Source: a virus. From it: a DNA stretch of 39,622 nt. The stretch is from IMG/VR virus record IMGVR_UViG_3300047317_000191, positions 1 to 39,622 of that record. One strand, 5' to 3'. A program made the translations under genes and the position numbers. Position 1 is the stretch's first letter. Every line of letters begins with the position of its first letter. Positions 10,987 through 39,622 of this stretch are shown piece by piece. The notes under the pieces were generated by a model, which worked only from the letters and a program-made list of their open reading frames with translations, had not been told where the DNA came from and searched no databases.

Positions 10987-13900
10987 TCACCCCTTCGGTG
11001 GCTTGTCCTTGAACACGGCGAGTTCAAGTACATCCAGTCGCCCCGCCATGTCCCGCATCACGGGCAGCAGATAGGCGTAGAAGCGCTCGTGTTCCAGATT
11101 CTCGATGTCACCCTGCTCGTTCCGATCGACCAGCGCGTCGAAGGCACCGTCATTCGCCATCGAGAGCGCATGCACATCTTCGGCCACCGAACCGGCGATC
11201 CGCTGCGTGTACGAATGGTCTGCGTCCCACATCCCCTTGTCGATCCACGTCTTCGTGTCGAGGTCGAGGATCGCGTAGTTGGCCGGGATGACCTGCTGGT
11301 CCAGCTTGTGAGCACTGAGCGACGTGGATCGCTGCAGGGTGCCGGAGGACACGACCACCACGTTGGCCGTACCCGTCGTGGTGGTGTTGTACACGGCCGC
11401 GCACTGGATCGCCGTCGTCGTGATCGTCAGGGTGCCGACCGCGCTCACCGAGAACTGCGCCTGGTCCGTGCTGCTGCCCACCGCTTCACGCAGGAACAGC
11501 GGCTTGAACAGGTAGGTCCCGCCGGTGTTGATGATGGCGTAGGTGTTCGACGTGCTCAGCCGGAAGGTGATCCCGGAGCCGGTGGTCTGGACGAACAGGG
11601 ACGGGCCGTCGCCCTGCAGCGTGGTGTTGGTCGAGTTCTGGGCGAGGATCGTCGTCAGGCCGCTGCCCATGAGTTGGATGCCGCCGGTCGACAGGATGTT
11701 GATGTTGTTGCTGGTGAGCGTCGTCGCCGTGGTGCTCTGGATCACGATGTTGCCCTGGCTGGTGATGGCAATCGCGTTCGTGGCGAGGATCTCGGCCTGT
11801 CCGAGAGAGCCGGTGACGTCGAACTGCGCGTACTTCGTGGAGTTCCATGCGCCAGCGAGCAGCACCGTGCCGCCGAACGTGACGTCGGAACTCAGGGCGA
11901 GAATCGCGCTCTTGATCCCTGCGCCCCACCCTCCGGGCGGAGTCTCCAGGTTCATAAACGTGGTGTCGGCGTCGTTGATGCCGGACCCGGTGACCTGGAT
12001 GTAAGCCTTCCTACCCGCCTGGGTGTAGAAGTTGGCGGTCCCCCAACCGAGACCTCCACTGTCCGTGGTGATCTCGACCCGACGCCCGGACGTAGCCGTC
12101 TGAACAAGGGCACCCGTCACGGTGCCGCCGACGATGCTGCCGTTGACGATGTTGAACGAGCCGGGGGTCCACGACGACACAAGGACATTCCCCGGGCCGT
12201 AATCGAAGATCCCCTGCGTCCCGTAGGACGTGCCGACGATCTCGATCCGGGGGTTCGGGGACGCTGCCGTCCGGATCAACGGTCCGGTGATGGACTTGGC
12301 GTCCATCGCCCCGTCAACGACCAGCGTCCCGTCGTTGGCCAGGTTGACGATCACCTGATCGACGGTGATCGTCCCGTTCGCCACAGCGGATGCGATCCAG
12401 ATACTCGCGCTGATGTTGAGGGTGTTAGCGGGCGTCACGAACAGCGAGGTCGTGGTGGTCGTCACCTGGGTCCAGGTGTTCGCCGGGATAGCGGGTGACG
12501 AGTAGACGTTGGAGGTGGAGGTCGATCCCGTGTTCAGGTAGACGTTCTGCTGCAGCACGAACTGCCCGGACGCCAGGGCTACGGAGGAATACACCCACCA
12601 CGTGTGCCTGTAGTACTGCCCGACCTGGGCACCCCACCGGGCGGACGTCAGCGTCGTGACCGTGCCCGCCGTGTGGGCCACCACGGCAGCCGGACCGCCA
12701 CCACGGGAGCCTGTGGGGGCCCCTGTCAACGTGCCGCCTGCGACGGTCCAGGCCAGGGGCTTGCCGGTCGCATCGACGGAGGTGAACTGCGCGTTGTCGA
12801 TGAGGTTGGCGACCGAGGTGATCGTCAGATTCGACATGGTCACGGAGTTCTGGGCCAGTGCCGACCCGGCCACCAACTCAGAGACCCACTGCGGGCTGGG
12901 CGTGATCGACCAGACCCACTGCGCGATCGTCTTCCCCGGAGGATTCTGCTGAATCCAGCGGTCCCCAGCGACTTCGGTGCCCACGACGGAGGGGGTGGCA
13001 GTCGAGTAGGTGTTCGTGTTCTTGGCGTCGATGGTCGGGGCCAGACCGCCTACCCCGGTGGTGAGGTCCCCGTGTCCGACACCCAGAGGTGTGCCGGACA
13101 CCTCGGTCGACGGGGCCGACTCGTTACCTGCTGCGTCCGTCGATGTGAACTTGAAGTATCGGACACCGCTGGTGGTGAGGCTGAGGGTCACCGCACCGGA
13201 CTTGGACATCGTCGTGACCCGGAGACCGGCGCTCAACGCGAACCCGGGGGACGTCCCCATGTACACGGTGATGTGGTCGAAGTCCTTGGGGATCGCTGAC
13301 AGCAGGTTCCCGTCCCACGCCACACCGAGCGCCAGCGGTATCGGGGTGACGGTGGGGGCCGTCGGTACCGGTGGCGGCGTTGTGTCGCCTGCGGCCACTA
13401 CAGACACCGTGGAGGACCAGTTCGACGGGACGAGGTCGGGGCTGATGGCCCGGGCGGCGAACTTGTAGGTGTTGCCGGGCACGAGGTTGAAGAACGTGAC
13501 GGTATTCAGGGTCCCGGCGATGGACTTCCGGTCCGTGTAGGCGAACGGGGACTCAGACGTCACGATCACGGCGTCATACGAGCCCGGGGTCATCGGGTCG
13601 GCGTCGATGCCGACGGTCACGGGGGTCCAGGCGATGCCGATGTTCGCCACCATGACGGGCGACTGAGACACCGTCGTGGTGGTGAAGGTGTTCGACAGGA
13701 TCGTCGGGGCGATCGGCTGCGCCGGGACACGTATCGGTGCCCCGGTGGGGGTCGCCGGGACACGGTAGTCGTTGGACGGTGCGGCGGCACCGTAGGTGTT
13801 GTAGACGACCTCCCCGGCCTTGCCGCCCGCCGCGATGCCCTTGAGGGCCCGGTTCACCCTGTCGAACTTGGTCTTGGAGATCGTGTCCAACTCGAGTGAG

Positions 13901-15540
13901 TACTTGACCCGGCCGGTCGCGTCGTCCATCGAGACCGCGATCGACATCACCCGACGGGCCTGCATGTCACCGTTGCCGTAACTGCTGACCATGATCGAGT
14001 CGCCAAGCTGGAAGTACTCCCACGGGATCGGAGCCCCAGGTGCCAGGGGCTCGTACTCCGCCGGGGCGGACTCGGTGTTCCACATCTTGGTGCCCAGATA
14101 CATGTTGCCGACTTCGATGCCCAGCGCCGGGTCGTAGGACGTTGCCGCCAAGTAGGTCTCGAGACGCCCGTAGTCGGTCGTGTAGCTGTTGGTCATCTCC
14201 CGCCAGTCGGCCTTCGTCTGCACCAGCACGGCGGTCTTGTAGTCGGCGGTCATCTGGAACGACCCGGACGTCATCGACTGTCCGGCCTCGATCTGTACCG
14301 CGGCCGTCTGGGTACGATCCTCGCCCTTGTACGAGTAGGCGTTGAAGGTGAAGGTGTTGGGGTCGATCCAGACGTCCATCTCGATCTCGGACAACTTGTC
14401 CACGACACTCGAGTAGTCGTCCTGCCCGATGCTGAACGTCCACGGCAGGGCCGTCGACCAGAGGACACCATTCGAGTCGTAGAGCCTGGTGAACCCGAGC
14501 GCCAGGCTTCCGCTCTGGAACGCCCATACGCCTCTTGTCCCGGCCTCCTTGAACAACGTTGCCAGGATCTCCCCCGGAGTCCACCCAGGAGGCGATGAGG
14601 GATATGCGTTGCACACCCACGTCGGGTCGCTTTCGACCACCCGCTCCGCCAGCACCGGAGAGCCCGCCGTCGAGTCGTCGCCAGGCTTCTGGCGATACAT
14701 CACCAGGATGAACGCGCCTGCCTGCGGCGACAGACACGTCGCCTTGACCGCGAGCGTGTGGAACCCGGCCTTGAGGGTCACCGACGCCTGACCCATGGCC
14801 GTCCAGTTACCGCCGTCCGGGGTGGTCACCAGGGGCTGTGAGTCTATGTACGCCTCGTAGCGCTGGTCCGCCCCGATGTAGACCGCATAGGTACCGTCCA
14901 CGAGAAGGGTGAACTCCTTGCGGAAATACACGTCCCCCTGGCGGTGTGCCGGTGGGTACGTCCGGGAGTTCTCATTCCAGATCCAGTTGACGTCACCGGC
15001 GGCAGGAGGCCAGGACTGCGGGTAGTACCGCCACGGATTCCCGGTGCCCGCCGTCTTGTTCCAAAGCTGGACGCTGCTCTGGAACGCCACATTCACCGGC
15101 GGGACCCAGTTGCCCGAGACGTACCACGTCGACCCGGTCCGGTCGGAGGCGAAGCTGAACACCCGGGACGTCACGTCGTGCTTCGCGTCCGTGCCGAACT
15201 CGGAGTGGACGACGGCGTCCTTGAGCCAGGTCCGAAGGCCCTCGCCCGAGACGCTGACGATGACCCCGGCGTTCTCGGCGTCGGAGGCGATGCCGACATT
15301 GCGCTGCTGGACGATGAACGCACCACGGTAGACGCCGTTGACCTTGACCCGGATCACTCGCCGGAAGTTGATCGCCGCCGGGTTGGCGAAGAGTTCGGGA
15401 GCGTCACCCTTGATGTCGAACGACCCACCGCCGGGCCCGAACTCTTCGAGGTACTTGATGTTGAACGCATTGGGGAGCAGACAGACGAACGCCAGGGGCC
15501 ACGCGGACCACGCCTCTAGTTCAATGCCTTCGTTCGCCAT
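10987..15540 (-). CDS. Tail-tip / minor tail protein with FN3, CBM and S74-like C-terminal domain (1,517 aa)
   Basis: A large central tail-tip protein. The N-terminus (about 1-160, WSAWPLAFVCLLPNAF) fits a hub or Tal-like domain that docks on the distal tail protein. Residues about 160-290 form an inserted lectin/PA14-like domain (FRKEFTLLVDGTYAVYIGAD). Two FN3-like domains follow at about 615-815, each with typical Trp/Pro strands, then a CBM4/9-like jelly roll at about 900-1080. After a beta-rich shaft, residues 1398-1517 resemble the S74 intramolecular chaperone of phage fibres: STSLSAHK with a possible Ser-Lys pair (S1407 or S1409 and K1412), GSVAEDV, and a final helix LLPVMRDMAGRLDVLE. 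It lies immediately downstream of the distal tail gene. Confidence 0.85.
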   Translation of the reverse strand: MANEGIELEAWSAWPLAFVCLLPNAFNIKYLEEFGPGGGSFDIKGDAPELFANPAAINFRRVIRVKVNGVYRGAFIVQQRNVGIASDAENAGVIVSVSGEGLRTWLKDAVVHSEFGTDAKHDVTSRVFSFASDRTGSTWYVSGNWVPPVNVAFQSSVQLWNKTAGTGNPWRYYPQSWPPAAGDVNWIWNENSRTYPPAHRQGDVYFRKEFTLLVDGTYAVYIGADQRYEAYIDSQPLVTTPDGGNWTAMGQASVTLKAGFHTLAVKATCLSPQAGAFILVMYRQKPGDDSTAGSPVLAERVVESDPTWVCNAYPSSPPGWTPGEILATLFKEAGTRGVWAFQSGSLALGFTRLYDSNGVLWSTALPWTFSIGQDDYSSVVDKLSEIEMDVWIDPNTFTFNAYSYKGEDRTQTAAVQIEAGQSMTSGSFQMTADYKTAVLVQTKADWREMTNSYTTDYGRLETYLAATSYDPALGIEVGNMYLGTKMWNTESAPAEYEPLAPGAPIPWEYFQLGDSIMVSSYGNGDMQARRVMSIAVSMDDATGRVKYSLELDTISKTKFDRVNRALKGIAAGGKAGEVVYNTYGAAAPSNDYRVPATPTGAPIRVPAQPIAPTILSNTFTTTTVSQSPVMVANIGIAWTPVTVGIDADPMTPGSYDAVIVTSESPFAYTDRKSIAGTLNTVTFFNLVPGNTYKFAARAISPDLVPSNWSSTVSVVAAGDTTPPPVPTAPTVTPIPLALGVAWDGNLLSAIPKDFDHITVYMGTSPGFALSAGLRVTTMSKSGAVTLSLTTSGVRYFKFTSTDAAGNESAPSTEVSGTPLGVGHGDLTTGVGGLAPTIDAKNTNTYSTATPSVVGTEVAGDRWIQQNPPGKTIAQWVWSITPSPQWVSELVAGSALAQNSVTMSNLTITSVANLIDNAQFTSVDATGKPLAWTVAGGTLTGAPTGSRGGGPAAVVAHTAGTVTTLTSARWGAQVGQYYRHTWWVYSSVALASGQFVLQQNVYLNTGSTSTSNVYSSPAIPANTWTQVTTTTTSLFVTPANTLNISASIWIASAVANGTITVDQVIVNLANDGTLVVDGAMDAKSITGPLIRTAASPNPRIEIVGTSYGTQGIFDYGPGNVLVSSWTPGSFNIVNGSIVGGTVTGALVQTATSGRRVEITTDSGGLGWGTANFYTQAGRKAYIQVTGSGINDADTTFMNLETPPGGWGAGIKSAILALSSDVTFGGTVLLAGAWNSTKYAQFDVTGSLGQAEILATNAIAITSQGNIVIQSTTATTLTSNNINILSTGGIQLMGSGLTTILAQNSTNTTLQGDGPSLFVQTTGSGITFRLSTSNTYAIINTGGTYLFKPLFLREAVGSSTDQAQFSVSAVGTLTITTTAIQCAAVYNTTTTGTANVVVVSSGTLQRSTSLSAHKLDQQVIPANYAILDLDTKTWIDKGMWDADHSYTQRIAGSVAEDVHALSMANDGAFDALVDRNEQGDIENLEHERFYAYLLPVMRDMAGRLDVLELAVFKDKPPKG

Positions 15541-25502: not shown

Positions 25503-25730
25503 CTACCGGGGCACAACGACCGTCTCGACCTCTTCACCCAGGATGTTGAACCGGTGGAGCACCCGGGCCACGTCCTGCCCCTCCCGGCGGAGGGAACGGC
25601 AGCAGTCGGAACAGGCGAACTCGATGAGGTTGCCGTCAGTAATCTTCGGCTTCTCACCCTCGGACACCACGATGGCCAGCAGGCGACGGGGCCCGACGGG
25701 GCAGCGGATCTGGGTCTGGGTCTCGGTCAC
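25503..25730 (-). CDS. Small cysteine-containing protein, zinc-ribbon/Com-like (75 aa)
   Basis: The layout (IRCPVGPRRLLA early, NLIEFACSDCCRSL in the middle) recalls the phage Mu Com-like zinc finger, which has two Cys pairs. Here the first pair has only C10; the second is C40, C43 and C44. So it may bind zinc with a changed ligand set or not at all. The GTG overlaps the glycosyltransferase stop by four bases (GTGA). Com in Mu regulates translation of the neighbouring Mom gene; a similar role here is only an analogy. It lies directly before the major tail gene and its motif copy. Confidence 0.75.
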   Translation of the reverse strand: MTETQTQIRCPVGPRRLLAIVVSEGEKPKITDGNLIEFACSDCCRSLRREGQDVARVLHRFNILGEEVETVVVPR

Positions 25731-26836
25731 GGCATTCCCCGGATCAGGGTGACCTCACGACGTTCGAGGTTGTTGGCGATGGTGAACAGCCGCTCGACCA
25801 CCGTCGACCAGTTGCACATCGCGGGGATCGTCCGGGCCGCGATGTCGCCCTTCTTCTTGGCCTCGTCACGGTTCCGGTAGGCCGACAGCATCGCGGCCTT
25901 GAGACCTTCCATGTCGATGTTCGCCCAGTGCACGTCCGGGTGGAACGGCATCTGCCCCAACGTGACCGGCACCGGGTAGGCGTACTCATCGGAGAGCCAC
26001 TGCGCATGCCCGCCCCAGTTGCTGGCGATCACGGTCCCGCCGGTGGACAGGAACTCGAGGGCCGGGAGGTTCTTGCCCTCCCCATGCGACGGTGCCAGGA
26101 GGACGTGCTGGTTCCGGTAGAACTCCTTGAGCACGTCCATGGGCCAGGTCTCGTAGTGGATACGGAGCTTCGGGATCGTCTCCATGATCGCCGGGTGCAG
26201 CGAACCGGACGTGTCCTTGAGATGTAGCTCGGCACCCTCGAACTCGACCGGGTACTCCGTCTTCAGTTCCTTGAAGGCGGCGATCGCGGCGAACGGATTC
26301 TTCCGCTCGCTGAGCACCCCGCACATGGCGAAGCCGAACCGGTCGGAGAACCAGTCCCGCTCCACCGCGCCCCAGGGCTCGGGGTCGTAGCCGCCCTGCA
26401 GCACCAACAGCGGCAGGTCATCGGGACAGTGCGGACGCATCGCCTCGGCGGTCACCTCGTCGTAGCAGAGGATCGCGTCGAAGGTCTGGAAGTGGTAGTC
26501 GATCTCGCTCAGATTCTTGGCGTCCATATTCGCCAGCGAGTCGAACTCCCACATCGTCCAACCGATCAGCCGGTCGCACGCCTCCCGCATCTCGGGCGAC
26601 GTCCGCAACTGCGCAGGGTCGAGATGGATCAACCCCAGATCGAACGGGCCGACTAGCGGCTTGGTCAACAGCATCGCCACCTCGGTGGGCAGCGGGGAAC
26701 TGACGAACGTCGGCTGCAGATACACCTCCCAGCCGAACTCGAGGAACGTCTGGGCGAGCCCGATACCGTCCCGTCCGTAGCCGCTGAATATCGACAGCGG
26801 CACCTTGAGTAGCACGGACGGACGGTGCGACTTCAT
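25727..26836 (-). CDS. GT-B fold glycosyltransferase (GT4-like, 369 aa)
   Basis: A retaining glycosyltransferase-like protein. The N-lobe opens with VLLKVPLSIFSGYGRDG, the donor-lobe start is seen in FAMCGVLSERKNPFAAIAAF (from 169), and the EX7E motif that contacts the sugar nucleotide is E253 to E261 (EGKNLPALE), followed by GGTVIASNWGG. I chose the ATG preceded by TAGGAG; an earlier in-frame start lies inside the tail terminator gene. It sits in the middle of the tail operon, overlapping the next gene, so it is probably expressed with virion proteins and may glycosylate a capsid or tail protein. Glycosylation of actinophage virions by phage-coded transferases is reported; this target is inferred. 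Donor sugar unknown. Confidence 0.85.
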   Translation of the reverse strand: MKSHRPSVLLKVPLSIFSGYGRDGIGLAQTFLEFGWEVYLQPTFVSSPLPTEVAMLLTKPLVGPFDLGLIHLDPAQLRTSPEMREACDRLIGWTMWEFDSLANMDAKNLSEIDYHFQTFDAILCYDEVTAEAMRPHCPDDLPLLVLQGGYDPEPWGAVERDWFSDRFGFAMCGVLSERKNPFAAIAAFKELKTEYPVEFEGAELHLKDTSGSLHPAIMETIPKLRIHYETWPMDVLKEFYRNQHVLLAPSHGEGKNLPALEFLSTGGTVIASNWGGHAQWLSDEYAYPVPVTLGQMPFHPDVHWANIDMEGLKAAMLSAYRNRDEAKKKGDIAARTIPAMCNWSTVVERLFTIANNLERREVTLIRGMP

Positions 26837-26852
26837 TCGTGGGCTCCTAGCC

Positions 26853-27320
26853 TCAACCGAGCACGATGTTGAAGGTGGCCATCGCTTGTCGCATGTGGTC
26901 ACCGTCGATCACCGGGTAGAAGATCGGCTCCGACGAGCCGAGCGACGACAGCACCCGGAGATCTCCCCACAGGTATTCGTCAGCGGCGGGCAGGTGCAGT
27001 AGCCGGTAGAGCGCGACGAACGTGGTCTCGATCTTGTCGGTGGTGTCGTCCTGCACCACGTTGTTCCCGCCGTCCCGCTGAGGGTCGGCCCAGATGTCGC
27101 AGGCCAGCACCGGGAACCGGGCCGTGTTGTGTTGGTTCGGGGTGGCCCACGACCCGTTGGTCCGCACCACCACCGCGACGGCCCCAGAGCCCTCTACGGT
27201 CGCCTGCAGGTGGTCCCGGAACAACCATGTGGCCGAGACGACATCGAAGCCCAGTGTGGCCGTCAGGGCCGTCTGCGCCGACAAGTACTTCCATGTCGCC
27301 AGGGTCAGGGAGTCGGTCAC
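26853..27320 (-). CDS. Tail terminator protein (155 aa)
   Basis: A 155-residue protein that fits the tail terminator, the ring that caps the tail tube and joins it to the head. The pattern LATWKYLSAQTALTATLG, VVVRTNGSW and FPVLACDIWAD, then a helix VQDDTTDKIETTFVALYRLLH and a final strand pair near MRQAMATFNIVLG, is typical of this family. GTG start, overlapping the upstream gene by four bases. Its place last among the connector genes supports the call. Confidence 0.8.
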   Translation of the reverse strand: MTDSLTLATWKYLSAQTALTATLGFDVVSATWLFRDHLQATVEGSGAVAVVVRTNGSWATPNQHNTARFPVLACDIWADPQRDGGNNVVQDDTTDKIETTFVALYRLLHLPAADEYLWGDLRVLSSLGSSEPIFYPVIDGDHMRQAMATFNIVLG

Positions 27321-29574: not shown

Positions 29575-30582
29575 TCAGGGCGCGTCCACGTTCGTGACCA
29601 CGACCATCTGCTCCGGCCGGGTGATGACCGGCATGATGCTCCACTCGAGAAGGTACTGCCGGGCGGACGGGTCCGGCTCCTTCCACGTCTTGGAGAACTT
29701 GCCGGTGAAACCGTCGGGGGCTTCGTCGTCCGCCGACGGACCGATGAACAGTTCCATCGGGCGCTGCGACGTGTAGTTGCCGATGTAGAGCGCGCCGTCC
29801 GGCACGAACATCTGGGTGTTGCCGTTGTCGTCCTGGTACTGCGAGTCGATCAGTGTCCAGTTGAGGCCGAGGAAGCCAGGCAGGGTGCCGGTCTGGTAGT
29901 ACTGGTCCTTCATGCGGTCCGACAGCAGGTACGGCGCGTTGGTACCGGAGTTGGCGAACGACTGGAAGATGTACTGCGCCGTGACGTCGGTCAGGTAGGC
30001 GGTATCGGCGGCGACCCGCGCGTCCCGCACGATGAGCCGCTTCCACGCCTGCACGTCGGAGACGATCTGGTTCGGGGTGGCCGTGCTCCACCGGACGGCG
30101 GGCTTGGCGATCTTGTGGGTGGCCGGGAAGAGATAGTCCACCGCGATGGCCGCACCATCGGGGTAGGTCACGGTCAGCACGCCGGACAACGACTGCCAGA
30201 GCGTGAACTCCGCGAAGTTGTCGAACCGCATGTTGAGGTCCGTGATCTCCCGCATCACCGCCTGCTCGGCGTTGGTCGCGGCGATCTGCCCGGCGGTCCG
30301 GAGCCAGTGGATCGTGGTGGGCTCGAAGACCTTCTTCTCCCGGAGGTAGATGAAGGACGCGCTCTGCGCCGACCGGACCAGCCGGGGCACGATCTGTGCC
30401 TCGGAGTTCGGCACGTTGGGCTTGGCCACCGACCGGGAACCCCGGATGACGTCCCAGTTGACCGACGGGAACGGCCAAGGGGTCTTCGGGGTCGTGTTGA
30501 GCAGCGTCAGGGTCTCCGGCGTCACCAGCTTTTCAACGACGCCACGCAGGACCATGGGCTCGAGAAGAGAGATGGCTGGCAT
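29575..30582 (-). CDS. Major capsid protein, lambda gpE family (335 aa)
   Basis: The HK97-fold shell subunit of the lambda gpE type. Seen: MPAISLLEPMVLRGVVEKL near the start, SASFIYLREKKVFEP, AEQAVMREITDLNMRFDN (spine-helix region), QIVSDVQAWKRLIVR, FVPDGALYIGN and the end LLEWSIMPVITRPEQMVVV. The family places the decoration protein directly upstream, as found here. The ATG has AAAGGA upstream. It has a motif copy 30-45 bases upstream and a terminator downstream, which fits high, separate expression. Confidence 0.92.
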   Translation of the reverse strand: MPAISLLEPMVLRGVVEKLVTPETLTLLNTTPKTPWPFPSVNWDVIRGSRSVAKPNVPNSEAQIVPRLVRSAQSASFIYLREKKVFEPTTIHWLRTAGQIAATNAEQAVMREITDLNMRFDNFAEFTLWQSLSGVLTVTYPDGAAIAVDYLFPATHKIAKPAVRWSTATPNQIVSDVQAWKRLIVRDARVAADTAYLTDVTAQYIFQSFANSGTNAPYLLSDRMKDQYYQTGTLPGFLGLNWTLIDSQYQDDNGNTQMFVPDGALYIGNYTSQRPMELFIGPSADDEAPDGFTGKFSKTWKEPDPSARQYLLEWSIMPVITRPEQMVVVTNVDAP

Positions 30583-30743: not shown

Positions 30744-31148
30744 TCAGAACGTGAAGACGTTCGTCGCGGTGTCGGCCCGCGCGTTCAGCTTGGTGATGGC
30801 GTTGGCGTCCGCACCGGAGACCAAGCTGTTCTTGAGGATTCCGGCGATCAGCATGTTCGCCTGGAACGGGCCCACCGTCGTGACGGTGCCGGTGTCCACG
30901 CTCTTCCGGAGGACGCCGGACGGGTTCTGGGACCCGTCACCGCTGCCGGAGGCATACACCTTGTAGAGCTTGGTCGCCGTGACCTGCCCCAGCACGGTGC
31001 CGGTCAGGATGACGCCCTGACCGGGAGCCAGGTGCACCCCGACCTGGGTGTAACCCCGCATCGAGGACAGGATCTCGACGTCGGACTGGGTGTCGCCGGT
31101 CACGAAACTCGGGTCGTGGAGAACGTTGCCGACGTACTGAGTCGCCAT
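30744..31148 (-). CDS. Head decoration protein, lambda gpD-like (134 aa)
   Basis: Size and place (between scaffold and capsid genes) match the lambda gpD role, a trimer that stabilises the expanded capsid. The sequence is beta-rich with VHLAPGQGVILTGTVLG, SGVLRKSVDTGTVTT and FQANMLIAGIL, the last being typical of decoration proteins. ATG start with AAAGG upstream. A perfect hairpin follows it. Confidence 0.85.
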   Translation of the reverse strand: MATQYVGNVLHDPSFVTGDTQSDVEILSSMRGYTQVGVHLAPGQGVILTGTVLGQVTATKLYKVYASGSGDGSQNPSGVLRKSVDTGTVTTVGPFQANMLIAGILKNSLVSGADANAITKLNARADTATNVFTF

Positions 31149-31196: not shown

Positions 31197-31682
31197 TTAC
31201 TTCTTGCCCTGTAGAACGGGGTCAAGCGTTGAAGTCAGGCGGGCGATCTCGGCGTCCACGTCAAGTTCGTGGGCATCCGATGGCGGTTCGGTACCACGCT
31301 CCTTGGAGAGCGCGATGATTGCCTTCTCCGGGACCAGCGCGTCGAACATCTCCCGGTTGGTGTTGGCCAGGGAGATCATCGGGTCGCGCTGCACCGGAAG
31401 GATGCGACCCTGGGAGATCAGGTCGTCCACCTCCCGGGAGGTGGCCTCATTCTTGTAGGTGTCCACGGCGGCGGACAGGGCGACGTTCTCCGTCGCCACG
31501 TCCACCACGGCCTTGACCAGAGCCTCGGCGGAAGCGGAGGACTGCCCGGCCGACAGGGAGATCAGGCCCGAGTCCACCATCGCGGCGGACAGCTTGGTGA
31601 TCGTTCCGACCTGCGCCTCGAGCGCCACGACATCGACGCCGTGGGTCAGTAGGGCCTCGATGAGTTCCTGCTTCGTGGGCAT
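31197..31682 (-). CDS. Nested scaffold protein (161 aa) from internal start
   Basis: In-frame product of the protease-scaffold gene beginning at M208 (MPTKQELIEALLTHG), with GGGAG eight bases upstream. A second internal ATG at M189 (31739; 180 aa) also has GGAG eight bases upstream. The product would be the whole helical scaffold without the protease. Assembly needs far more scaffold than protease, and lambda Nu3 gives the precedent. Which ATG is used cannot be told from sequence alone. Confidence 0.58.
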   Translation of the reverse strand: MPTKQELIEALLTHGVDVVALEAQVGTITKLSAAMVDSGLISLSAGQSSASAEALVKAVVDVATENVALSAAVDTYKNEATSREVDDLISQGRILPVQRDPMISLANTNREMFDALVPEKAIIALSKERGTEPPSDAHELDVDAEIARLTSTLDPVLQGKK

Positions 31683-32303
31683 GGCGTCGTCTCCCGGAAT
31701 GTTGGGGTCAGGCTGTGCAGTGAGCGGGACCAGAACCATCGGTTCGTCTCCACCACTGTTATCGGCAGAACCAAACGCGAAGAGCGGCGACGATCCTTCA
31801 GTGGCTGTGGCCGCTATGGTCTCGAACGGATCGAGATCAACGATGTAGGGCCGGTTGGTGACTGCGACATGAAGGAGGGTCGGCCCGACCTTCTTCCCGG
31901 TCCGGGTGTCGGTGTAGTCCTGGTGGAGCATTGCGGACGCCCCGAGAAGGGTCGTGCCGATCTTCTCCGACCTGTCCTGGTCCCGGACGTCAAGGGTCGC
32001 GTAGAGCTTGTCACCGTCTCGCTCCAACCCGATGATCTCCCCGATGTTCCGGTCGGGATCTTCGGTGTGTTCGTTCTTCGGCCCGGCCAGAGGGATCTGG
32101 ACGGTGGACACGACGTTGGTCGAGAAGTTGTTGACCAGCCGGTCCAGGAACGCATCGTCAATGTCGATGGTCTGCCCCGTGATGGGGTGGATCAGCGGAC
32201 CCTTGGACAGAATGTGCTTCCGGAAGAGCTTGCCCGAAGCCGTCTTGGAGAGCACGACGAAGGCATCACCCGGGGAAGGCGTGAAGAACGTCTTGGTGGG
32301 CAC
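31197..32303 (-). CDS. Prohead protease-scaffold fusion (Mu gpI-like, 368 aa)
   Basis: The N-terminal half (1-165) resembles the Mu gpI-type prohead protease: VQIPLAGPKNEHTEDP with H79, IGEIIGLERDGDKLYATLDV, then LLGASAMLHQDY with S123 as the likely nucleophile and LLHVAVTNRPYIVDL. Residues about 166-208 form an acidic, disordered linker. The remainder (209-368) is a helical scaffold: TKQELIEALLTHGVDVV, ENVALSAAVDTYKNEATSREVDDLI. Such proteases remove scaffold and head-protein N-termini after shell assembly. GTG start with AGGAGG six bases upstream. Two internal ATGs with good ribosome sites suggest that the scaffold is also made alone, as for lambda C/Nu3. Confidence 0.88.
   Translation of the reverse strand: MPTKTFFTPSPGDAFVVLSKTASGKLFRKHILSKGPLIHPITGQTIDIDDAFLDRLVNNFSTNVVSTVQIPLAGPKNEHTEDPDRNIGEIIGLERDGDKLYATLDVRDQDRSEKIGTTLLGASAMLHQDYTDTRTGKKVGPTLLHVAVTNRPYIVDLDPFETIAATATEGSSPLFAFGSADNSGGDEPMVLVPLTAQPDPNIPGDDAMPTKQELIEALLTHGVDVVALEAQVGTITKLSAAMVDSGLISLSAGQSSASAEALVKAVVDVATENVALSAAVDTYKNEATSREVDDLISQGRILPVQRDPMISLANTNREMFDALVPEKAIIALSKERGTEPPSDAHELDVDAEIARLTSTLDPVLQGKK
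31746..31768 (-). promoter_or_regulatory. Recurrent motif, copy B, inside the protease-scaffold gene
   Basis: Minus strand CTGCCGATAACAGTGGTG, then GAGAC, in the linker-coding part. It ends seven bases before the first internal ATG (31739) and about 63 before the second. It is nearly identical to copy A in a non-coding gap, so the match is not explained by shared protein coding. Confidence 0.5.
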
Positions 32304-32312
32304 TACAGCCTC

Positions 32313-32678
32313 CTACACGGGGGCCGTTGCACCCTCTTCAGTAGGTGCTGTGCCGTCCGCGCTCGCTACGTCACTGTTGTCTTCGGCAGGAGGCGGGGAG
32401 GCGAACAGGGCCTGAACCCGACGGTAGGCGGACTCGGGTGTCTCACCGGCCTCGGCGGGCACCGCCGTCCACATGACCACCGTCGGCCGCTGCCCGGACA
32501 GGTACTCACACCACTGGTCCCAGGACAGGTCGGGGAACTGGGTGGCCATCCGGAAGGCGGCGTAGTCGACGTCCGGCTTGGACGCCATCGAGTTGTAGTA
32601 GTTCGAGGTGGGGGACAGCCATACCCCGAGCGGTTCCCCGGACTCGGGGTCCTGGTGCACGGCCAGGAGCTTGCTCAT
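32313..32678 (-). CDS. Hypothetical head-region protein (121 aa)
   Basis: A 121-residue protein with LAVHQDPESGEPLGVWLSP, FPDLSWDQWCEYLSGQ and an Ala/Pro/Glu-rich C-terminus (PPPAEDNSDVASADG). The chosen ATG overlaps the upstream stop by four bases; a longer in-frame reading adds 27 residues that overlap the upstream gene and look unselected. It is placed before the protease. No family is recognised. A weaker CTGCCGAAGACAACAGTGAC motif-like string lies near its 3' end. Confidence 0.72.
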   Translation of the reverse strand: MSKLLAVHQDPESGEPLGVWLSPTSNYYNSMASKPDVDYAAFRMATQFPDLSWDQWCEYLSGQRPTVVMWTAVPAEAGETPESAYRRVQALFASPPPAEDNSDVASADGTAPTEEGATAPV

Positions 32679-33076
32679 CCCATCATCCCGGCTGCGTATT
32701 GCTCGGGCGTGTAGTAGCTGCCGTACTTCTGCAGGTTCTCCCGGGACTGCACCCACCAAGGATCGGTCACCAGACCCGGCGGGATGTTCCCTCCGAGCAA
32801 CAGCGGGAACGGGGAGTCAGCGAAATGGACGAGCACCACGAGTACTGGTTTCGTCCGGATCTGCTCGACCTCTTTGATCTGGAAGACGTAGGCGATGCCC
32901 TGCCGGTCGTTGAAGAACTGGACCACATACGGGTCCTGTGACTCCACCTTGATCCAAGGGATCTGCATCGTGACGAAGTCGCCCTCAATGGACTCGGGGT
33001 CCCCGTAGCTGGCCCACCGCCCTATCGCGCCGTGGGGGAACGCCGTATCCCAATCGGCCTGCGTCTCGAACTTCAC
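32675..33076 (-). CDS. Hypothetical head-region protein (133 aa)
   Basis: A 133-residue mixed alpha/beta protein with many aromatic residues: MKFETQADWDTAFPHG, IPWIKVESQDPYVVQFFND, VLVVLVHFADSPFPLLLGG, QKYGSYYTPEQYAAGMMG. GTG start overlapping the upstream giant gene by four bases. Its coupling suggests it is made in step with the giant protein and could be a partner or chaperone, but no family is recognised. Confidence 0.75.
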   Translation of the reverse strand: MKFETQADWDTAFPHGAIGRWASYGDPESIEGDFVTMQIPWIKVESQDPYVVQFFNDRQGIAYVFQIKEVEQIRTKPVLVVLVHFADSPFPLLLGGNIPPGLVTDPWWVQSRENLQKYGSYYTPEQYAAGMMG

Positions 33077-36000
33077 GGCGTCAGTCCCTTGTTCTTCTGG
33101 ACCTGCTTTGAGTGTGCTGCCTGGGCCTGCGCCTCGGTCACGTAGACATCCTCGATGGGAACGCCGCCGATGGTGTCGATCCCCGCATCCTTGAGGCGCT
33201 TCAACTCGACCTGACGAGCAGCCTCGGTCTGGAAGATGACCGTCTGAGAGTAGTCGAGCAACGACACCTGCCCCTTGAGCATCGCCTCGTTGCTGGAATG
33301 CCCCAACGCAATGATGTCGTCCATCTCCCAGGGAGCCCCGGACTTCTTGTAGTTGATGTTGCCGTACTGGTCGTTCTGGAACACGTAGGACGTCGTCCAG
33401 GCCAGGACTCGAGGGTCCAGCCAGACCTTGCTGTACGAACTGAAACTGGTCGAGAGCCGGGTGTAGACCTGATCGCTCGAACCCTTCTGCTGATCGTCAT
33501 CGGGGGACTGGCCCATGATGTGCGCGGCCAACGTGTTGTGCCGTTCCTCGGTGGACATCAGCGCGTTGGTCTGGGCGACCGGCGCGATGCTCCCGGACAG
33601 GCTGTGCTGCAGCCCGTGTGGCAACTTCTTCCGGAGTGCCTCGAGGTCGATGTCGAACCGGTCCCAGTGCGGTATGCCGTGCCCGTACTCGTCTCCGGCG
33701 TTGGTGCCGAAGTTCTGGAACGTCGGCATGTAGCCCTTCTTGGCGACCCAGTTGTCCACCAACTGCTTGCCCTCAAGCTCCGACCAGACCTCCCGCCACC
33801 GGGACAGTTCCTCGGCCTCAGAGGTCGCCTGGTCGGGGTGCAGCGAGGCGAACTTGGCCTTGACCTTGGCGGTCTTGGTGCTGCCCTTACGGTCCAGCAG
33901 GACGCCATACAGGTGCCGCCAGTAGTACAACTCCATCCGCTCTTCCGAGTCCATCGGCGTCATGTCGACACCGGACTGCTCGAACATGTCGAGTGCCTGC
34001 TGCAACTGGGTCGCGTCGTTCCCGACGGTCTCGACCCGGAACCATCCCTTGTGGGCCAGGCGGGCACCGAAGTTCGAGTTCCACGGCCGGTACTCGATCT
34101 TGGTGCCGTCGTTGAACTCGATGTGGTAGGCGTCACCCTCTACCTGGGCCCGGCCTTGCCCGGAGAAGGACAGGGACGCCCCGTAGTCCAGCGTGTTGCT
34201 GCCCAGCACGGTGAACCCGGTCGCCGGGTCGGTCTTGGTCATGTTGTGCTGTGGCACCGCCGCCAGATGGAACAGCGCCTTCCCCCGGGTGACCGTGAAC
34301 GGAGCCGTGGGCTTGACCACCGGGCCGGGCAGAGCGTCTTCCGCCTCCGGCTTCGGGGTGTAGTCATACCGGACGAAGTGGGGAACGACCTTGTTCCCCT
34401 TCTCCTTAGCATCCAGGGCGTTGGAAGCGGCACTCAGATACAGGTCCAACATCTCCCGGTACTGCCCGGCCAGGACGGGCTTCCCGCCGAACCACTGCTC
34501 CGCCATCGTCTCGGTGTTGGTCTTGAGGGCGTTCTCGATGTCCGCCTTGGCGGTCTCGAGTGCAGCCACCTTCTGGGCGTTGTACTGCCCGTCCAAAGAG
34601 TGGTGGTTGATCGTCTTCGAGCCCTCGAAGATCGCCGTGAATAGCTGTGACTCCTTGGGCCCCTGCGACGGGTTGAGCACCGCGATGGTGGGCACCGTGG
34701 GGGTCGTCTGGGAGTGGTAGCTCTGGGACAGGTAGTTGGGGTCGATCAGCGAGTCCAGCAGTGCCGTCAGCTTGGTGTCCCCGTCCTTCCGGAGATGCCC
34801 ATTGGCGACAAGCACCACGTCACCCTTCGCACTGATGACGTTCCGGACGTCGATACTCGCATCCTCGAAGTCCTTTCCCGAGAAGAACGTGGAGTGCCCG
34901 AACCGCTGTGCATTCTTGACGTCGTCCAGCAGATCCTGGGTGACCCCGGTGTGCACTCCCGGGGCGATGACACTGGGGGCCTCGGGCTTGGTGAGCCCGG
35001 CGTCGGAGTAGATCGAGTCCCAGAACTTCTCGAAGTCGGCCTCCATCGAGTTCTTCCGCGCGAGCGCGGCTTCGATGAGGGCTGCCTTGGACTTGAACTG
35101 GGTCTTCGAGAAGTCGGTCCGGTACTTGAACCCTTCCTCAAGGATCGCCCGGTAGGCGTCGTCCGACCCCTTGGTGACCGCCCGAGCCCGGGAGATGGCA
35201 GCCCGGTAGGCAGCGTCGACATTGGCCTGGTCGATCTTGCCGGAGACCATCGCGTTGTAGATCGGGTCGTAGACCTTCATGTGGTCGCCCATGACGTTCT
35301 GGGACAACATCCCACGCTTGAGCTTGTACTGCCCGAAGCGCACCCACGCCCGGCCCTTGTCGATCGGCACGACACCGCCGTCGGGGGTCCGGAAGAAGTT
35401 CTCCCAGTGTGCGTCGTCGTCGTCCAGCAGCCAGTCCAGGACATGAATGCGGGCGATGTCCTCGAGTTCCTTCTTGGTCAACGTCTTGGGGTCGAACCCC
35501 TTGAGGTCACCGGTCGACGGGATCTTGGTCTGGACCTGACCGAGATCGTTGCCGATGGTCCGGACCTCGGACGCCGCCATCTTGAACCCGAAGAGTTGCC
35601 CGGCCTTGTGGGCTGCATCCTCGGTGTACGGCCGGAACTTCTCCTTGGCCACCTTGAAGAGATACACGTTGCCGAACTGGTCCGCGACATCGTACTTCTC
35701 CCCGAACCCGCCGTACTTCGGCTGCTCGGACGCAGGCAGCTTGGTGAAGACCTTGGTCGGCGTCCCGCCCAGATCATGGACGACGCCCCACCCGTCGGCC
35801 GCAACGGTGAGTTCGCCGTATGAGTTGACCGAACTGCCGATGGTCGAGTAGAGGGCGTCGAACTTCTGCTTGGCGACGGCGGGCTGCAGGTAGGACTTCG
35901 AGTTCGGCTGGATGCCGGACAGGTAGTGCAACTGGACCAAGCCCTGCAGGACGTTGTCCTGGTTGGCCTGCAGCAGCCCCTTGGCGATCGACTTGGGGAA

Positions 36001-39000
36001 GATCGAGGTCAGATACTCCTGGATCTCCGGCTTGGTGAGGTGGTCAGCGAAGTTCGCCTCCGGGGCGAACTTGGCGAACCCGGCAGGGAGCGGCACGGTC
36101 TGACCGGCCGGGATCAGCGTCTTCGCCGGAAGGATCGGCTCGGTGTAGGACAGCCCCTGGGTGACCCTCTGCTTGCCGAGCGCGGTGAGCTTGTCGACGT
36201 TCTGCTGGTCACCGTGGGCGTGGTAGGACGCCAGGTTCTTGAGTTGCGGGAGGCTGAGCCCCGTCGAGTACTGGGTCAGCTTCGCCGTCAGCAAGTAGTC
36301 CTCAAGGGCCTCCTGGTTCTGTATCCAACCGATGGCCGTGGCGTAGCTGTCGGGGAACTGCCCCGAACCCTTGAGCCCTGCCGTCCCCGCCGGGATCTGG
36401 GTCGGGTCGAACGGCAGGTAGTTGACCTTGCCCGGGTTGTTCGTGGCCCCGCCGTACCCGGGGGAGCCCGGGTGGTTGACGTGGAAGGTCGCCGGGACGG
36501 TGGTGCCCTGGGAGTGCGCGGCATCGACCTCGAGTTGGTACGCCTGGTCCCAGTTGCCGGAGTACCAGGCGTCGATCCACGCCTTCCGGTAGGCCATGGA
36601 CATGTGGCCCATGTACTTCCCGGCCTTACCCGAGAACCCGGCCTTGTCGACTATCTCCTTGATCGCCTTGTTGGTCGCGGTCGAGTTGTTCAGAGTGAGG
36701 TCTTCATACGCATTGGTCGTCTGGGTGATCGGGGTCCCGGTCAGCACCTTGCCGGGCTTCTCGGCACTGGCGGCAGCCGCCTCGATAGTCGTGGCGAACT
36801 TGGCGTTGGCCCGGTCGGCGGCAGAGGGCCCGCCGATGTAGTGCGCCAGCATGTTGTAGGCCGAGCCGTACTTGGCTACTGCAGCGTCCGCTGTCGCCTG
36901 GGAGCCGTAGAACGTGTACCCGCCGTAGGCGGCATGCAGCAGGTCGGTGTCGGACTGGCTGGGGGTCCAGTTGAGCATCGCCTCCTTGGCGGTGGCCACA
37001 TCGAACTCACGGGACTGGAAGTAGAACTTCTTGAACGGCTTTGGCGCGACAATCGTTGTGCCGTCCAAGCTCCGGAGCCCGTACTTGTCGACGTTCCATT
37101 GCGCCGTCGTCAGGTTGTACTCGGTGGAGGTCGGGGCGGACGAGTAGTAGTCCTTGTAGATCCGGGTGAACTTGGTCCCGCCCTCGGACACGACGATCTT
37201 CTTGTCGTCGTTCCCGGTGGCCTGACCGAAGTAGGCGTACTCGCCGTCCGGGACGGGGTCCCCGGCGTGGAGGACAGTGGCCGTAATGGCCTCCCCCTCG
37301 GGCTTCCCGTCATAGAGCGGGCCAGCGTAGGTGATCTTGCCTTTGATCGCCTGCGCCTGCTCGGTGGAGATCTCGGTGGCCTTGCCGTTGGCGTCGATCT
37401 TCTCGATCAGGCCGTTGGTGAAGACGTGCAGGAACTCCTTCTTGGGCAGCGCCCAGATCCCGGCCGCGAACGGCATCGAGGGGGAGATGACGTCAGCCTT
37501 CGGGGCCTCGAGACTCGGGTTCTCACCACCGATCTGGGAGAAGTCGCCGTTGGCGAACGAACTCTTGAGAATGGTCAGATACGTCCCGGTGACGTGATCC
37601 TCCTGGGCGTTACCCGAGAAGATCTGGCCCGTCGGCACCCCATCGGCCCCGACGACAGCGAGGTACGGGTAGCCCCCGGGCGCGTTGTTGTCCTTCCACA
37701 ACGTCTCCCCAGCCTTGATGGAGACCGTGTGCTCACCAAGAATGGAGTGATACGTGACATCCTGCATGGGTGCGGGCGACGGCTCGGGGACACCGTCGGA
37801 CCAAACGACTTCCCCGGACTTGCCGGTCTCCCCGATGTTCGACTTGAAGTCCTTGGACTGCTGGGTGGAGAACCGGAAGTCCCCGGACAGGGCCGAGTAC
37901 CGCCCGAGGTACACGCCGTGCCGATACGCCAGGTAGGACGTGCCCTGCTTCCGGATCGTGGACCCGACGGGGACAGCGGTGGTGATCGTCTGGCCGCTGG
38001 CGTTCGTCCAGGACGCCTCCACCATCGGGGAATGCAGCACCCCGTAGAACGAGTCGTGGGCCACCGTGTTCGCGTCGTCGGGATTACTGCCCGCCTCGAA
38101 CGCCCCGGTCGACGTGTTGATCCGACCGATGGGGGTGAAGTTCCCGTCGGTGACGATGGCGGGCCAGGTGTCGGAGATCGACGTCTGGTGCTTGGACCAG
38201 ATGAGCGAACCCTCGGGCAGCCCGGTGACGTCCTTGTACTGCGGCGGGCCCGATCCCGACGCTCCGGGGACGAACAGTGTCGCATCGTAGGTCGCGCTGG
38301 GCAGGTTGGACGAGGCGACGGCGGCGTCGTTCGACACGATCGGCGTGCCGGGGGCTACGAGGCCCTTGTACGGCTTCCAGGTCTCAGGATCGGACAAGGA
38401 CTTCAACTGAACGTTGACGGACCCCTGGGACTTATCGAAGAAGACCTGCAGGTTCTGCCCGTCCGGGGAGATCGCACCGATGGTGGGACCCTGCCCGGAC
38501 TGATCCTTGACGACGAACTTCCACCCCGGGTTGACGTAGTGGTGGAACCCATTGATCTCATAGAGCCCGCCCTGGGTGACCTCGCCGGAGTGCCCGGGCT
38601 CGGCTACCTTCTCCGCCTCGGCGGACAGCGTCGCACCGTTGGAGAGGTCCCCGGTGTAACCGAGAGAGTGCGCGTCCAGTTCGCTCCACTGGGACGCCTC
38701 CACAGCCTTGGCCGGACCGCCGCCAGGGGGGTACTCGGTCCACTTCGAGGAACTGCCTGCCGGACGCCGGACGAAGATCGAGGACGAACCCGGCAACGTG
38801 GCAATGAACGAGCCTGACGGGACAGCGAAGTTGCCGCCGTTGGCCAGATGGAACGTGCGTGCGCTTTCGATGAACCCCTGCTGCCCGTGGAAGGGCGAGT
38901 CGTTGACCGGAGAAATGTTGACGGCAGGGTCGATCGGCCCCGTGAACGGGTGGAACTTGTTCATTATGTTCGCGTTGTGGACGACGTGCGTGTCCGACGT

Positions 39001-39622
39001 GCTGGTGCCGTCCATGTTGACCGTAGTCAACGTCTTACCGTCGGCGGAGTGGATGAACATCTTCCCCGGCCAGTGACTCGAGCCTCCGGTCAGGATCGAA
39101 TCCCCGGGCTGCAGGGAGAACACCATGCCGTTGATCTTGTAGGCCCCGGCCTTGGACACCGTGCCCGGACCGGTCTGGTAGGAGAACCCGGAAGTCGGCC
39201 AGATCGAATGGTTCTCGGTCAACGGCCCCTGGTAGGGCACGAGCCCGGACGGCAGGTTGTCCTCATGGACCGTCTCGGCGGACGGCATTCCGTTCGCATC
39301 TAGGGTGTGCTTCTGCCACCAACTGTCGTACTGCGAATGCGTGTACACCGAGTGACTGTCCGACGGGTCAAGGGCGAAGACATGCCCTGCCGCGTAAGGC
39401 TTCTCAGGACCGTTTCCGATACCCAAATAGGAGACGTTGCCGTCTTCCGGCTTGGGCACAAGGCCGGGAGCCGTTGCGCCGTGGGCGATCTCGGACCCCG
39501 GGGTCATGTCCCCCAGGTATGGGTGTGAGTCACTGTTGATCTGGTTGAGGGTGGCGTTATTGGTCACCTCGAGTGAACCGAACTGGCTGTGCCCGGTGAT
39601 TACCCCGTCAGCGCTCTGGACG
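33073..39622 (-). CDS. Giant head-region protein with beta repeats and a HipA/PI4K-like kinase domain (partial, over 2,180 aa)
   Basis: A GTG at 39567 would give 2,164 residues, but the frame stays open to the window edge and reads well (SADGVITGHSQFGSLE), so the 5' end is probably missing. Numbered from that GTG: residues about 60-860 hold eight or so degenerate beta repeats of 70-110 residues; about 860-1270 is mostly helical. About 1270-1510 looks like a HipA/phosphatidylinositol-4-kinase-like fold, with FKVAKEKF (K1305, likely ATP-binding), DDDDAHWENFF (D1385, N1390) and PIDKGRAW (D1403, likely metal-binding). The C-terminal third is mixed and unassigned. It holds the place of a MuF-like minor head protein, upstream of protease, decoration and capsid. 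The protein may be packaged and ejected, or act in head assembly; both are inferred. Confidence 0.82.
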   Translation of the reverse strand, partial: VQSADGVITGHSQFGSLEVTNNATLNQINSDSHPYLGDMTPGSEIAHGATAPGLVPKPEDGNVSYLGIGNGPEKPYAAGHVFALDPSDSHSVYTHSQYDSWWQKHTLDANGMPSAETVHEDNLPSGLVPYQGPLTENHSIWPTSGFSYQTGPGTVSKAGAYKINGMVFSLQPGDSILTGGSSHWPGKMFIHSADGKTLTTVNMDGTSTSDTHVVHNANIMNKFHPFTGPIDPAVNISPVNDSPFHGQQGFIESARTFHLANGGNFAVPSGSFIATLPGSSSIFVRRPAGSSSKWTEYPPGGGPAKAVEASQWSELDAHSLGYTGDLSNGATLSAEAEKVAEPGHSGEVTQGGLYEINGFHHYVNPGWKFVVKDQSGQGPTIGAISPDGQNLQVFFDKSQGSVNVQLKSLSDPETWKPYKGLVAPGTPIVSNDAAVASSNLPSATYDATLFVPGASGSGPPQYKDVTGLPEGSLIWSKHQTSISDTWPAIVTDGNFTPIGRINTSTGAFEAGSNPDDANTVAHDSFYGVLHSPMVEASWTNASGQTITTAVPVGSTIRKQGTSYLAYRHGVYLGRYSALSGDFRFSTQQSKDFKSNIGETGKSGEVVWSDGVPEPSPAPMQDVTYHSILGEHTVSIKAGETLWKDNNAPGGYPYLAVVGADGVPTGQIFSGNAQEDHVTGTYLTILKSSFANGDFSQIGGENPSLEAPKADVISPSMPFAAGIWALPKKEFLHVFTNGLIEKIDANGKATEISTEQAQAIKGKITYAGPLYDGKPEGEAITATVLHAGDPVPDGEYAYFGQATGNDDKKIVVSEGGTKFTRIYKDYYSSAPTSTEYNLTTAQWNVDKYGLRSLDGTTIVAPKPFKKFYFQSREFDVATAKEAMLNWTPSQSDTDLLHAAYGGYTFYGSQATADAAVAKYGSAYNMLAHYIGGPSAADRANAKFATTIEAAAASAEKPGKVLTGTPITQTTNAYEDLTLNNSTATNKAIKEIVDKAGFSGKAGKYMGHMSMAYRKAWIDAWYSGNWDQAYQLEVDAAHSQGTTVPATFHVNHPGSPGYGGATNNPGKVNYLPFDPTQIPAGTAGLKGSGQFPDSYATAIGWIQNQEALEDYLLTAKLTQYSTGLSLPQLKNLASYHAHGDQQNVDKLTALGKQRVTQGLSYTEPILPAKTLIPAGQTVPLPAGFAKFAPEANFADHLTKPEIQEYLTSIFPKSIAKGLLQANQDNVLQGLVQLHYLSGIQPNSKSYLQPAVAKQKFDALYSTIGSSVNSYGELTVAADGWGVVHDLGGTPTKVFTKLPASEQPKYGGFGEKYDVADQFGNVYLFKVAKEKFRPYTEDAAHKAGQLFGFKMAASEVRTIGNDLGQVQTKIPSTGDLKGFDPKTLTKKELEDIARIHVLDWLLDDDDAHWENFFRTPDGGVVPIDKGRAWVRFGQYKLKRGMLSQNVMGDHMKVYDPIYNAMVSGKIDQANVDAAYRAAISRARAVTKGSDDAYRAILEEGFKYRTDFSKTQFKSKAALIEAALARKNSMEADFEKFWDSIYSDAGLTKPEAPSVIAPGVHTGVTQDLLDDVKNAQRFGHSTFFSGKDFEDASIDVRNVISAKGDVVLVANGHLRKDGDTKLTALLDSLIDPNYLSQSYHSQTTPTVPTIAVLNPSQGPKESQLFTAIFEGSKTINHHSLDGQYNAQKVAALETAKADIENALKTNTETMAEQWFGGKPVLAGQYREMLDLYLSAASNALDAKEKGNKVVPHFVRYDYTPKPEAEDALPGPVVKPTAPFTVTRGKALFHLAAVPQHNMTKTDPATGFTVLGSNTLDYGASLSFSGQGRAQVEGDAYHIEFNDGTKIEYRPWNSNFGARLAHKGWFRVETVGNDATQLQQALDMFEQSGVDMTPMDSEERMELYYWRHLYGVLLDRKGSTKTAKVKAKFASLHPDQATSEAEELSRWREVWSELEGKQLVDNWVAKKGYMPTFQNFGTNAGDEYGHGIPHWDRFDIDLEALRKKLPHGLQHSLSGSIAPVAQTNALMSTEERHNTLAAHIMGQSPDDDQQKGSSDQVYTRLSTSFSSYSKVWLDPRVLAWTTSYVFQNDQYGNINYKKSGAPWEMDDIIALGHSSNEAMLKGQVSLLDYSQTVIFQTEAARQVELKRLKDAGIDTIGGVPIEDVYVTEAQAQAAHSKQVQKNKGLTP

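Follow-up and report, generated by a model that had tools for sequence, protein, structure and literature searches.

Enzymatic domains linked to the MuF head domain and the so-called polyvalent proteins are thought to be packaged and injected, T4 Alt being the worked example (PMC5512222 and PMC9503650), and one of these sources predicted injected MuF fusions and polyvalent-protein kinases as early as 2017 (PMC5512222). Three papers (PMC3482391, PMC5576092 and PMC5512222) describe effectors and toxins that are fused to a MuF head domain or whose genes lie at the MuF locus, and in the passages found of these a HipA-like kinase goes unmentioned. The protein described here has the same arrangement. 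It is a giant head-region protein encoded at one end of IMG/VR virus record IMGVR_UViG_3300047317_000191, and the window, as we call the whole stretch of 39,622 nucleotides that was analysed, is that one 39.6-kb record. We consider it probable that this protein is a head-packaged, injected effector with an active protein-kinase-like domain of HipA/PI3-4K type. The general idea of injected effectors of the MuF-linked and 'polyvalent' kinds has been published, and so has a kinase family among them that differs from this one; what appears new is a two-lobed HipA-like kinase in that setting. Within the open-access papers searched, nothing relevant turned up on HipA with MuF, on kinase domains in minor head proteins or on phage-encoded kinases with HipA. 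The statement of the first-pass annotation that it knew of no virion enzyme so designed that had been characterised needs qualifying, in view of T4 Alt as a packaged enzyme and of the 2017 predictions (PMC5512222).

The protein and its predicted parts are given below, with residues numbered in the frame of 2182 amino acids and conservation counted over 44 non-redundant homologues, each less than about 92% alike.

33073..39621, minus strand: giant head-region protein, 2182 amino acids inside the window, frame open at the window edge, N-terminus missing beyond the end of the contig.
35761..39621, minus strand: N-terminal part, G/S/T-rich, with beta-repeat-like segments and then a helical stretch (translation and composition; repeat character by eye only).
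34981..35760, minus strand: kinase-fold domain (HipA/PI3-4K-like), residues ~1288-1547 (AlphaFold2, Foldseek, Pfam matches of relatives, conservation).
35653..35655, minus strand: Lys1323, predicted ATP-binding (beta-3) lysine, in FKVAKEK; 44 of 44.
35620..35622, minus strand: Glu1334, predicted alpha-C partner of Lys1323; Glu in 29, Asp in 14, Gln in 1.
35413..35415, minus strand: Asp1403, predicted catalytic aspartate of DxHxxN; 44 of 44.
35398..35400, minus strand: Asn1408, predicted metal-ligand asparagine; Asn in 27 and in the window, Gln in 14, His in 3.
35359..35361, minus strand: Asp1421, predicted metal-binding aspartate at the DFG-like position, here IDKG; 44 of 44.
34312..34980, minus strand: conserved linker between kinase and C-terminal domain, an alpha/beta part and then helices (alignment of 18 relatives, AlphaFold2 model; no known family).
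33076..34239, minus strand: conserved C-terminal domain with a weak ADP-ribosyltransferase (DarT-like) lead, present in 38 open reading frames.

The near-identical contig L002 encodes the same protein (100% identity), and its frame runs upstream for at least 1064 further residues and is still open at the contig end, so that the full protein exceeds 3200 amino acids and the residue numbering is arbitrary. The GTG at 39567, 18 residues into the 2182-residue frame, is not the gene start, since the L002 frame is open through and beyond it. The lysine, DxxxxN and metal-binding aspartate that the first-pass annotation had picked out all stand, and lie on the minus strand, whereas its numbers do not carry over, its K1305 and D1403 being K1323 and D1421 here. 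The N-terminal part had no Pfam or PHROG match and its BLAST self-comparison gave zero internal repeats; of the beta repeats and helical parts reported earlier, beta-repeat-like segments and a helical stretch can be made out by eye, but the repeats themselves were not confirmed.

The existence of a kinase-fold domain of HipA/PI3-kinase type, proposed in the first-pass annotation for this very part of the protein, is confirmed by structure prediction together with the conservation of its homologues. AlphaFold2, run on a seven-sequence alignment, predicts a kinase rather than an unrelated fold (mean predicted local distance difference test, pLDDT, 83.8; predicted template modelling score, pTM, 0.81). 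The model has strands in the N-lobe, an alpha-C helix and a C-lobe made of helices, the blocks from model residue 171 to 260 scoring pLDDT 93-98. Foldseek against PDB returned 639 matches at E <= 0.001, all 50 of those listed being kinases, among them CtkA (5.0e-6), PI3K-alpha (8.6e-6) and HipA from Shewanella (1.4e-5), each with probability 1.00. Five of the seven family members matched PI3_PI4_kinase in Pfam (PF00454, best E 4.8e-6) and five matched HipA_C (PF07804, best E 8.6e-5), counting matches with E up to 1, and the score of a free-standing relative encoded in L075, 27.1 bits, is exactly at the PI3_PI4_kinase cut-off. The window sequence itself lies below the HipA_C cut-off (14.5 bits versus 30.5, E 0.029) and has no PI3_PI4_kinase match above the Pfam cut-off; it is the family-level evidence, not these sub-threshold scores, that carries the predicted assignment. 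Profile-profile comparison with a HipA alignment of four sequences gave E 4e-5 (probability 70%, 115 columns), against E 0.24 and 0.28 for unrelated profiles, and in that alignment the G-loop, Lys, Glu and DxHxxN are colinear. NCBIfam yielded sub-threshold kinase matches only (TIGR03843, RisK1), the PHROG families that relatives match along their kinase region are of unknown function, and no family dedicated to a two-lobed HipA-like kinase was found in Pfam, NCBIfam or PHROG.

Along the chain the motifs follow in the order Lys1323, Asp1403-Ala-His-Trp-Glu-Asn1408 and Ile1420-Asp1421-Lys-Gly. The ordered pattern K..E..DxHxxN..[ILVM]Dx[GAS] turns up in 74 of 20,000 composition-preserving shuffles of the protein, so that homologues are needed and the pattern by itself is suggestive; its conservation among homologues is far stronger evidence. 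The kinase residues are kept in close and distant homologues alike: in addition to the invariant positions listed above, Ile1420 and the Asp of HxxD are present in all 44, and the His of DxH in 39. The domain is apparently active.

Comparison with described kinases brings out both likenesses and differences. HipA, a serine/threonine kinase toxin (PF07804), has the kinase fold and the same order of G-loop, Lys, Glu and DxHxxN, whereas the window domain is embedded in a phage head protein; no HipA N-terminal module was matched in Pfam across the whole 2182-residue protein, and no HipB partner was recognised in the one neighbour looked at, an adjacent 133-residue gene without a known family. The PI3/PI4-kinases (PF00454) and the SCO1664 family (TIGR03843) share the catalytic loop and the ID-G metal motif, the TIGR03843 matches being weak, but the likeness is confined to the catalytic core, the eukaryotic accessory domains are lacking and the window itself is unmatched. 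CtkA of Helicobacter pylori, the best PDB fold match, was not detected by sequence searches, and we know of no report of it as a phage head protein. The kinase-like fold also covers AMPylators such as SelO as well as small-molecule kinases, and lipid-acting PI3/4-kinases are among the nearest families here, so that some other chemistry deserves mention: the domain might AMPylate proteins, or its phosphate acceptor might be a lipid or a small molecule. We regard it as quite unlikely in view of the colinearity with HipA, a protein kinase, and the rank of CtkA, likenesses which do not settle the substrate. Kinase-PolyVal (PF18762) offers another parallel, a kinase in an injected multidomain protein with a common D.H..N...G...ID catalytic loop, and profile-profile comparison gave a probability of 81% and E 1.3e-5, over 48 columns of the catalytic loop only. 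Membership was rejected: Pfam scans gave no PF18762 match, the likeness is limited to those columns, and the window family has a predicted helical C-lobe, while the polyvalent-protein kinases of phages and plasmids are described as being without the whole C-lobe (Iyer et al. 2017, PMC5512222).

The genomic setting points to the phage head. Relatives show the gene order terminase, portal, gp15-like (MuF-like) gene and then the giant, which bears out the earlier placement of the gene at a MuF locus. In L058, the sister of the window on the kinase tree (support 100/99), the giant itself begins with the gp15-like domain as its N-terminal part (gp15-like match E 7.7e-43); it matches the MuF profile at E 4.8e-4 and keeps the CxxC...HPNCRC motif. 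Prophages spanning several bacterial phyla (Desulfosarcina, Ectothiorhodospira, a Pontiellaceae bacterium and others) encode Phage_Mu_F, kinase and the same C-terminal domain as the window in a single frame of ~1530-1590 residues, with Phage_Mu_F at E 1.2e-17, 9.4e-15 and 7.2e-15 in the three prophage proteins scanned, and five of nine genomes with such prophage MuF-kinase proteins have a same-strand Mu-type portal gene ~3 kb upstream. Gene 54 of McProf (3558 bases) directly follows the portal gene and combines VG15, kinase and ADP-ribosyltransferase; L086 is likewise a MuF-kinase-ADP-ribosyltransferase protein. Packaging and ejection are well supported by inference because of the MuF fusions in L058 and in prophages, the proximity of the portal and the MuF/VG15-type kinase proteins. 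Since the kinase is fused to a MuF capsid domain in relatives from many phages and prophages, it is probable that the particles of these phages contain the finished kinase, which would enter the host together with the DNA.

The many MuF fusions in bacterial genomes could also be read as a prophage polymorphic toxin system, in which the protein would act against competing bacteria and be paired with an immunity gene, MuF toxin fusions being described as widespread in temperate phages (PMC5576092). This we hold to be highly improbable: in most proteins the kinase is internal and does not form the variable C-terminal tip, and no immunity gene was recognised beside the window's gene in a limited search (one 133-residue neighbour, family unknown).

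Several observations weigh against an injected, active kinase. The N-terminus of the window's protein, where a MuF domain would sit, lies outside the window, and most capsid relatives have MuF as a separate gene. Onyinye gp16, a kinase-ADP-ribosyltransferase, is encoded before the terminase with a separate MuF gene, and Phrappuccino gp195 is found in another region adjoining a virion structural protein, both outside the portal-MuF position. The kinase module is missing from some same-locus relatives with the same capsid family, and because Magritte gp17 and L015-L018 are without it the module is, on this comparison, accessory. Query-normalised TM-scores to solved kinases are moderate (0.28-0.51 among the matches listed), and because of this the modelled domain is to be seen as a distant relative of them. 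Finally, the Asn metal ligand varies across the family, being Gln or His in 17 of the 44 homologues, and the window alone among the 44 has Asp instead of Asn at the N-x-D position. Both would suit a catalytically dead pseudokinase acting as a structural or ATP-binding module, which we judge very unlikely: the three core residues are invariant in all 44 homologues and the window retains Asn1408. Active E. coli HipA has Ala at the N-x-D position. Magritte gp17 (L056:11926-17901, 1991 amino acids), which is without a kinase, has an N-terminal region in common with the kinase-carrying giants, followed by downstream modules of its own.

For the injected effector, which we still prefer, computation shows the kinase fold, the conserved catalytic set, the place among head genes and the MuF fusions in the sister sequence and in distant prophages, while packaging, ejection, phosphotransfer and a host target are what we infer. 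A few copies of the giant protein would lie inside the capsid near the portal and would leave with the DNA at infection. Drawing on the ATP of the host, the kinase domain could then phosphorylate at least one host protein within minutes, in the way that T4 Alt ADP-ribosylates host proteins; the C-terminal domain probably binds the target or has an activity of its own. The most likely role is that host proteins are phosphorylated as infection begins. Alternatively, the kinase could work during assembly in the producing cell, phosphorylating itself or another virion protein and so regulating head maturation or DNA packaging. The fusion to a structural domain, and a gene position between portal/MuF and the protease and capsid genes, would fit such a role, yet some relatives with the same capsid do without the domain, which in other lineages is paired with ADP-ribosyltransferase domains typical of effectors and in L075 occurs as a free-standing copy, and we find an assembly kinase unlikely. 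Injection of an ADP-ribosyltransferase by a phage is known from T4 Alt, and if the injected-effector reading is true, a MuF-joined injected kinase would add phosphorylation to this first-minute takeover.

The first-pass annotation had overlooked that the C-terminus forms another conserved domain. In the clade of the window, residues 1548-1770 and 1795-2182 are conserved together with the kinase; the second of these stretches is shared by the prophage clade as well, and the C-terminal domain is ~22-31% identical to that of the window among 19 aligned sequences. The AlphaFold2 model of the linker and C-terminal part is of moderate quality (pLDDT 76, pTM 0.68). The best meaningful PDB fold match of the C-terminal domain is DarT, a DNA ADP-ribosyltransferase (7omy; E 0.32, probability 0.72, not significant), and hhalign to DarT was weak (2-20%). 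Profile-profile comparison with the ADPrib_exo_Tox-type ADP-ribosyltransferases of relatives gave no match, and no consistent Pfam family was found. With PDB profile searches included, an ADP-ribosyltransferase in the window is a lead only. Other lineages have a recognisable ADP-ribosyltransferase at the corresponding end of the protein, which is suggestive.

Searches from the window's kinase region found a single near-identical contig in IMG/VR and no isolated phages, and window-only searches gave no PDB sequence or PHROG matches and sub-threshold Pfam matches. A search with the capsid protein led to 53 related loci, several with diverged giants carrying the kinase region; a seven-sequence kinase alignment then led to 35 loci, and the kinase regions of these to isolated mycobacteriophages. 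A second alignment, led by L083, led to 34 loci in bacterial genomes, where an earlier scan with alignment A3 had found no confirmed locus. The kinase domains of McProf gp54 and Onyinye gp16 are ~39-40% identical to L083, which heads the alignment of that subfamily. These two proteins share a homologous kinase domain with the window but differ in their C-terminal enzyme, and they are annotated only as minor capsid/ADP-ribosyltransferase or ADP-ribosyltransferase, the gp54 record naming the capsid and ADP-ribosyltransferase parts and not the kinase. In mycobacterial phages and prophages the kinase stands beside an ADP-ribosyltransferase, in several cases inside MuF/VG15-type minor capsid proteins. 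It is possible, at a little less than even odds, that these proteins belong to a widespread and as yet unnamed family of HipA-like kinases that would be packaged in the capsid, be injected and phosphorylate host proteins early, often in one polypeptide with an ADP-ribosyltransferase or other second enzyme, such that each injected protein could make two covalent modifications. The domain left unannotated in the records of McProf gp54, Onyinye gp16 and Phrappuccino gp195 gains a name, and as members of the family occur both in mycobacteriophage isolates propagated on Mycobacterium smegmatis (Onyinye, Leopard, Aikoy and Phrappuccino among them) and in prophages whose host bacteria are in culture, it can be tested now whether the protein is in the virion, whether it is active and what its targets are.

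Other occurrences of the domain are more varied. The free-standing kinase at L075:9959-10777 (273-residue frame) lies on the same 124-kb virus contig as the giant-fused copy L078, and one phage thus appears to carry both forms. Short relatives with frames of 307-356 residues occur in Patescibacteria-type genomes (L126, L127 and L128; Uhrbacteria, Magasanikbacteria) and are possibly either cellular or from phages of those bacteria. On a Mycolicibacterium vaccae contig (L095:2-2812) the kinase is followed by a Scabin-like ADP-ribosyltransferase domain, which is another two-enzyme pairing.

Downstream of the giant in the window lie a small gene and then further head genes.

32675..33076, minus strand: small neighbour gene, 133 amino acids, overlapping the stop of the giant; no known family.
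31197..32303, minus strand: head maturation protease-like protein in the scaffold/protease gene position (phrog_328, E 1.3e-10).
30744..31148, minus strand: head decoration protein (phrog_49, E 3.4e-10).
29575..30582, minus strand: major capsid protein, Phage_cap_E (PF03864, E 1.2e-25; phrog_29, E 1.1e-30).

Elsewhere in the window, a 1517-residue tail protein (10987-15540, minus strand) shows an odd mixture of tail and head labels, its C-terminal 250 residues matching PHROG 'minor head protein' families (phrog_1786, E 3.1e-11). A glycosyltransferase gene (25727-26902, minus strand; phrog_2170, E 7.1e-33) stands among the head-tail genes, as it does in Microbacterium phage Magritte (gp31).
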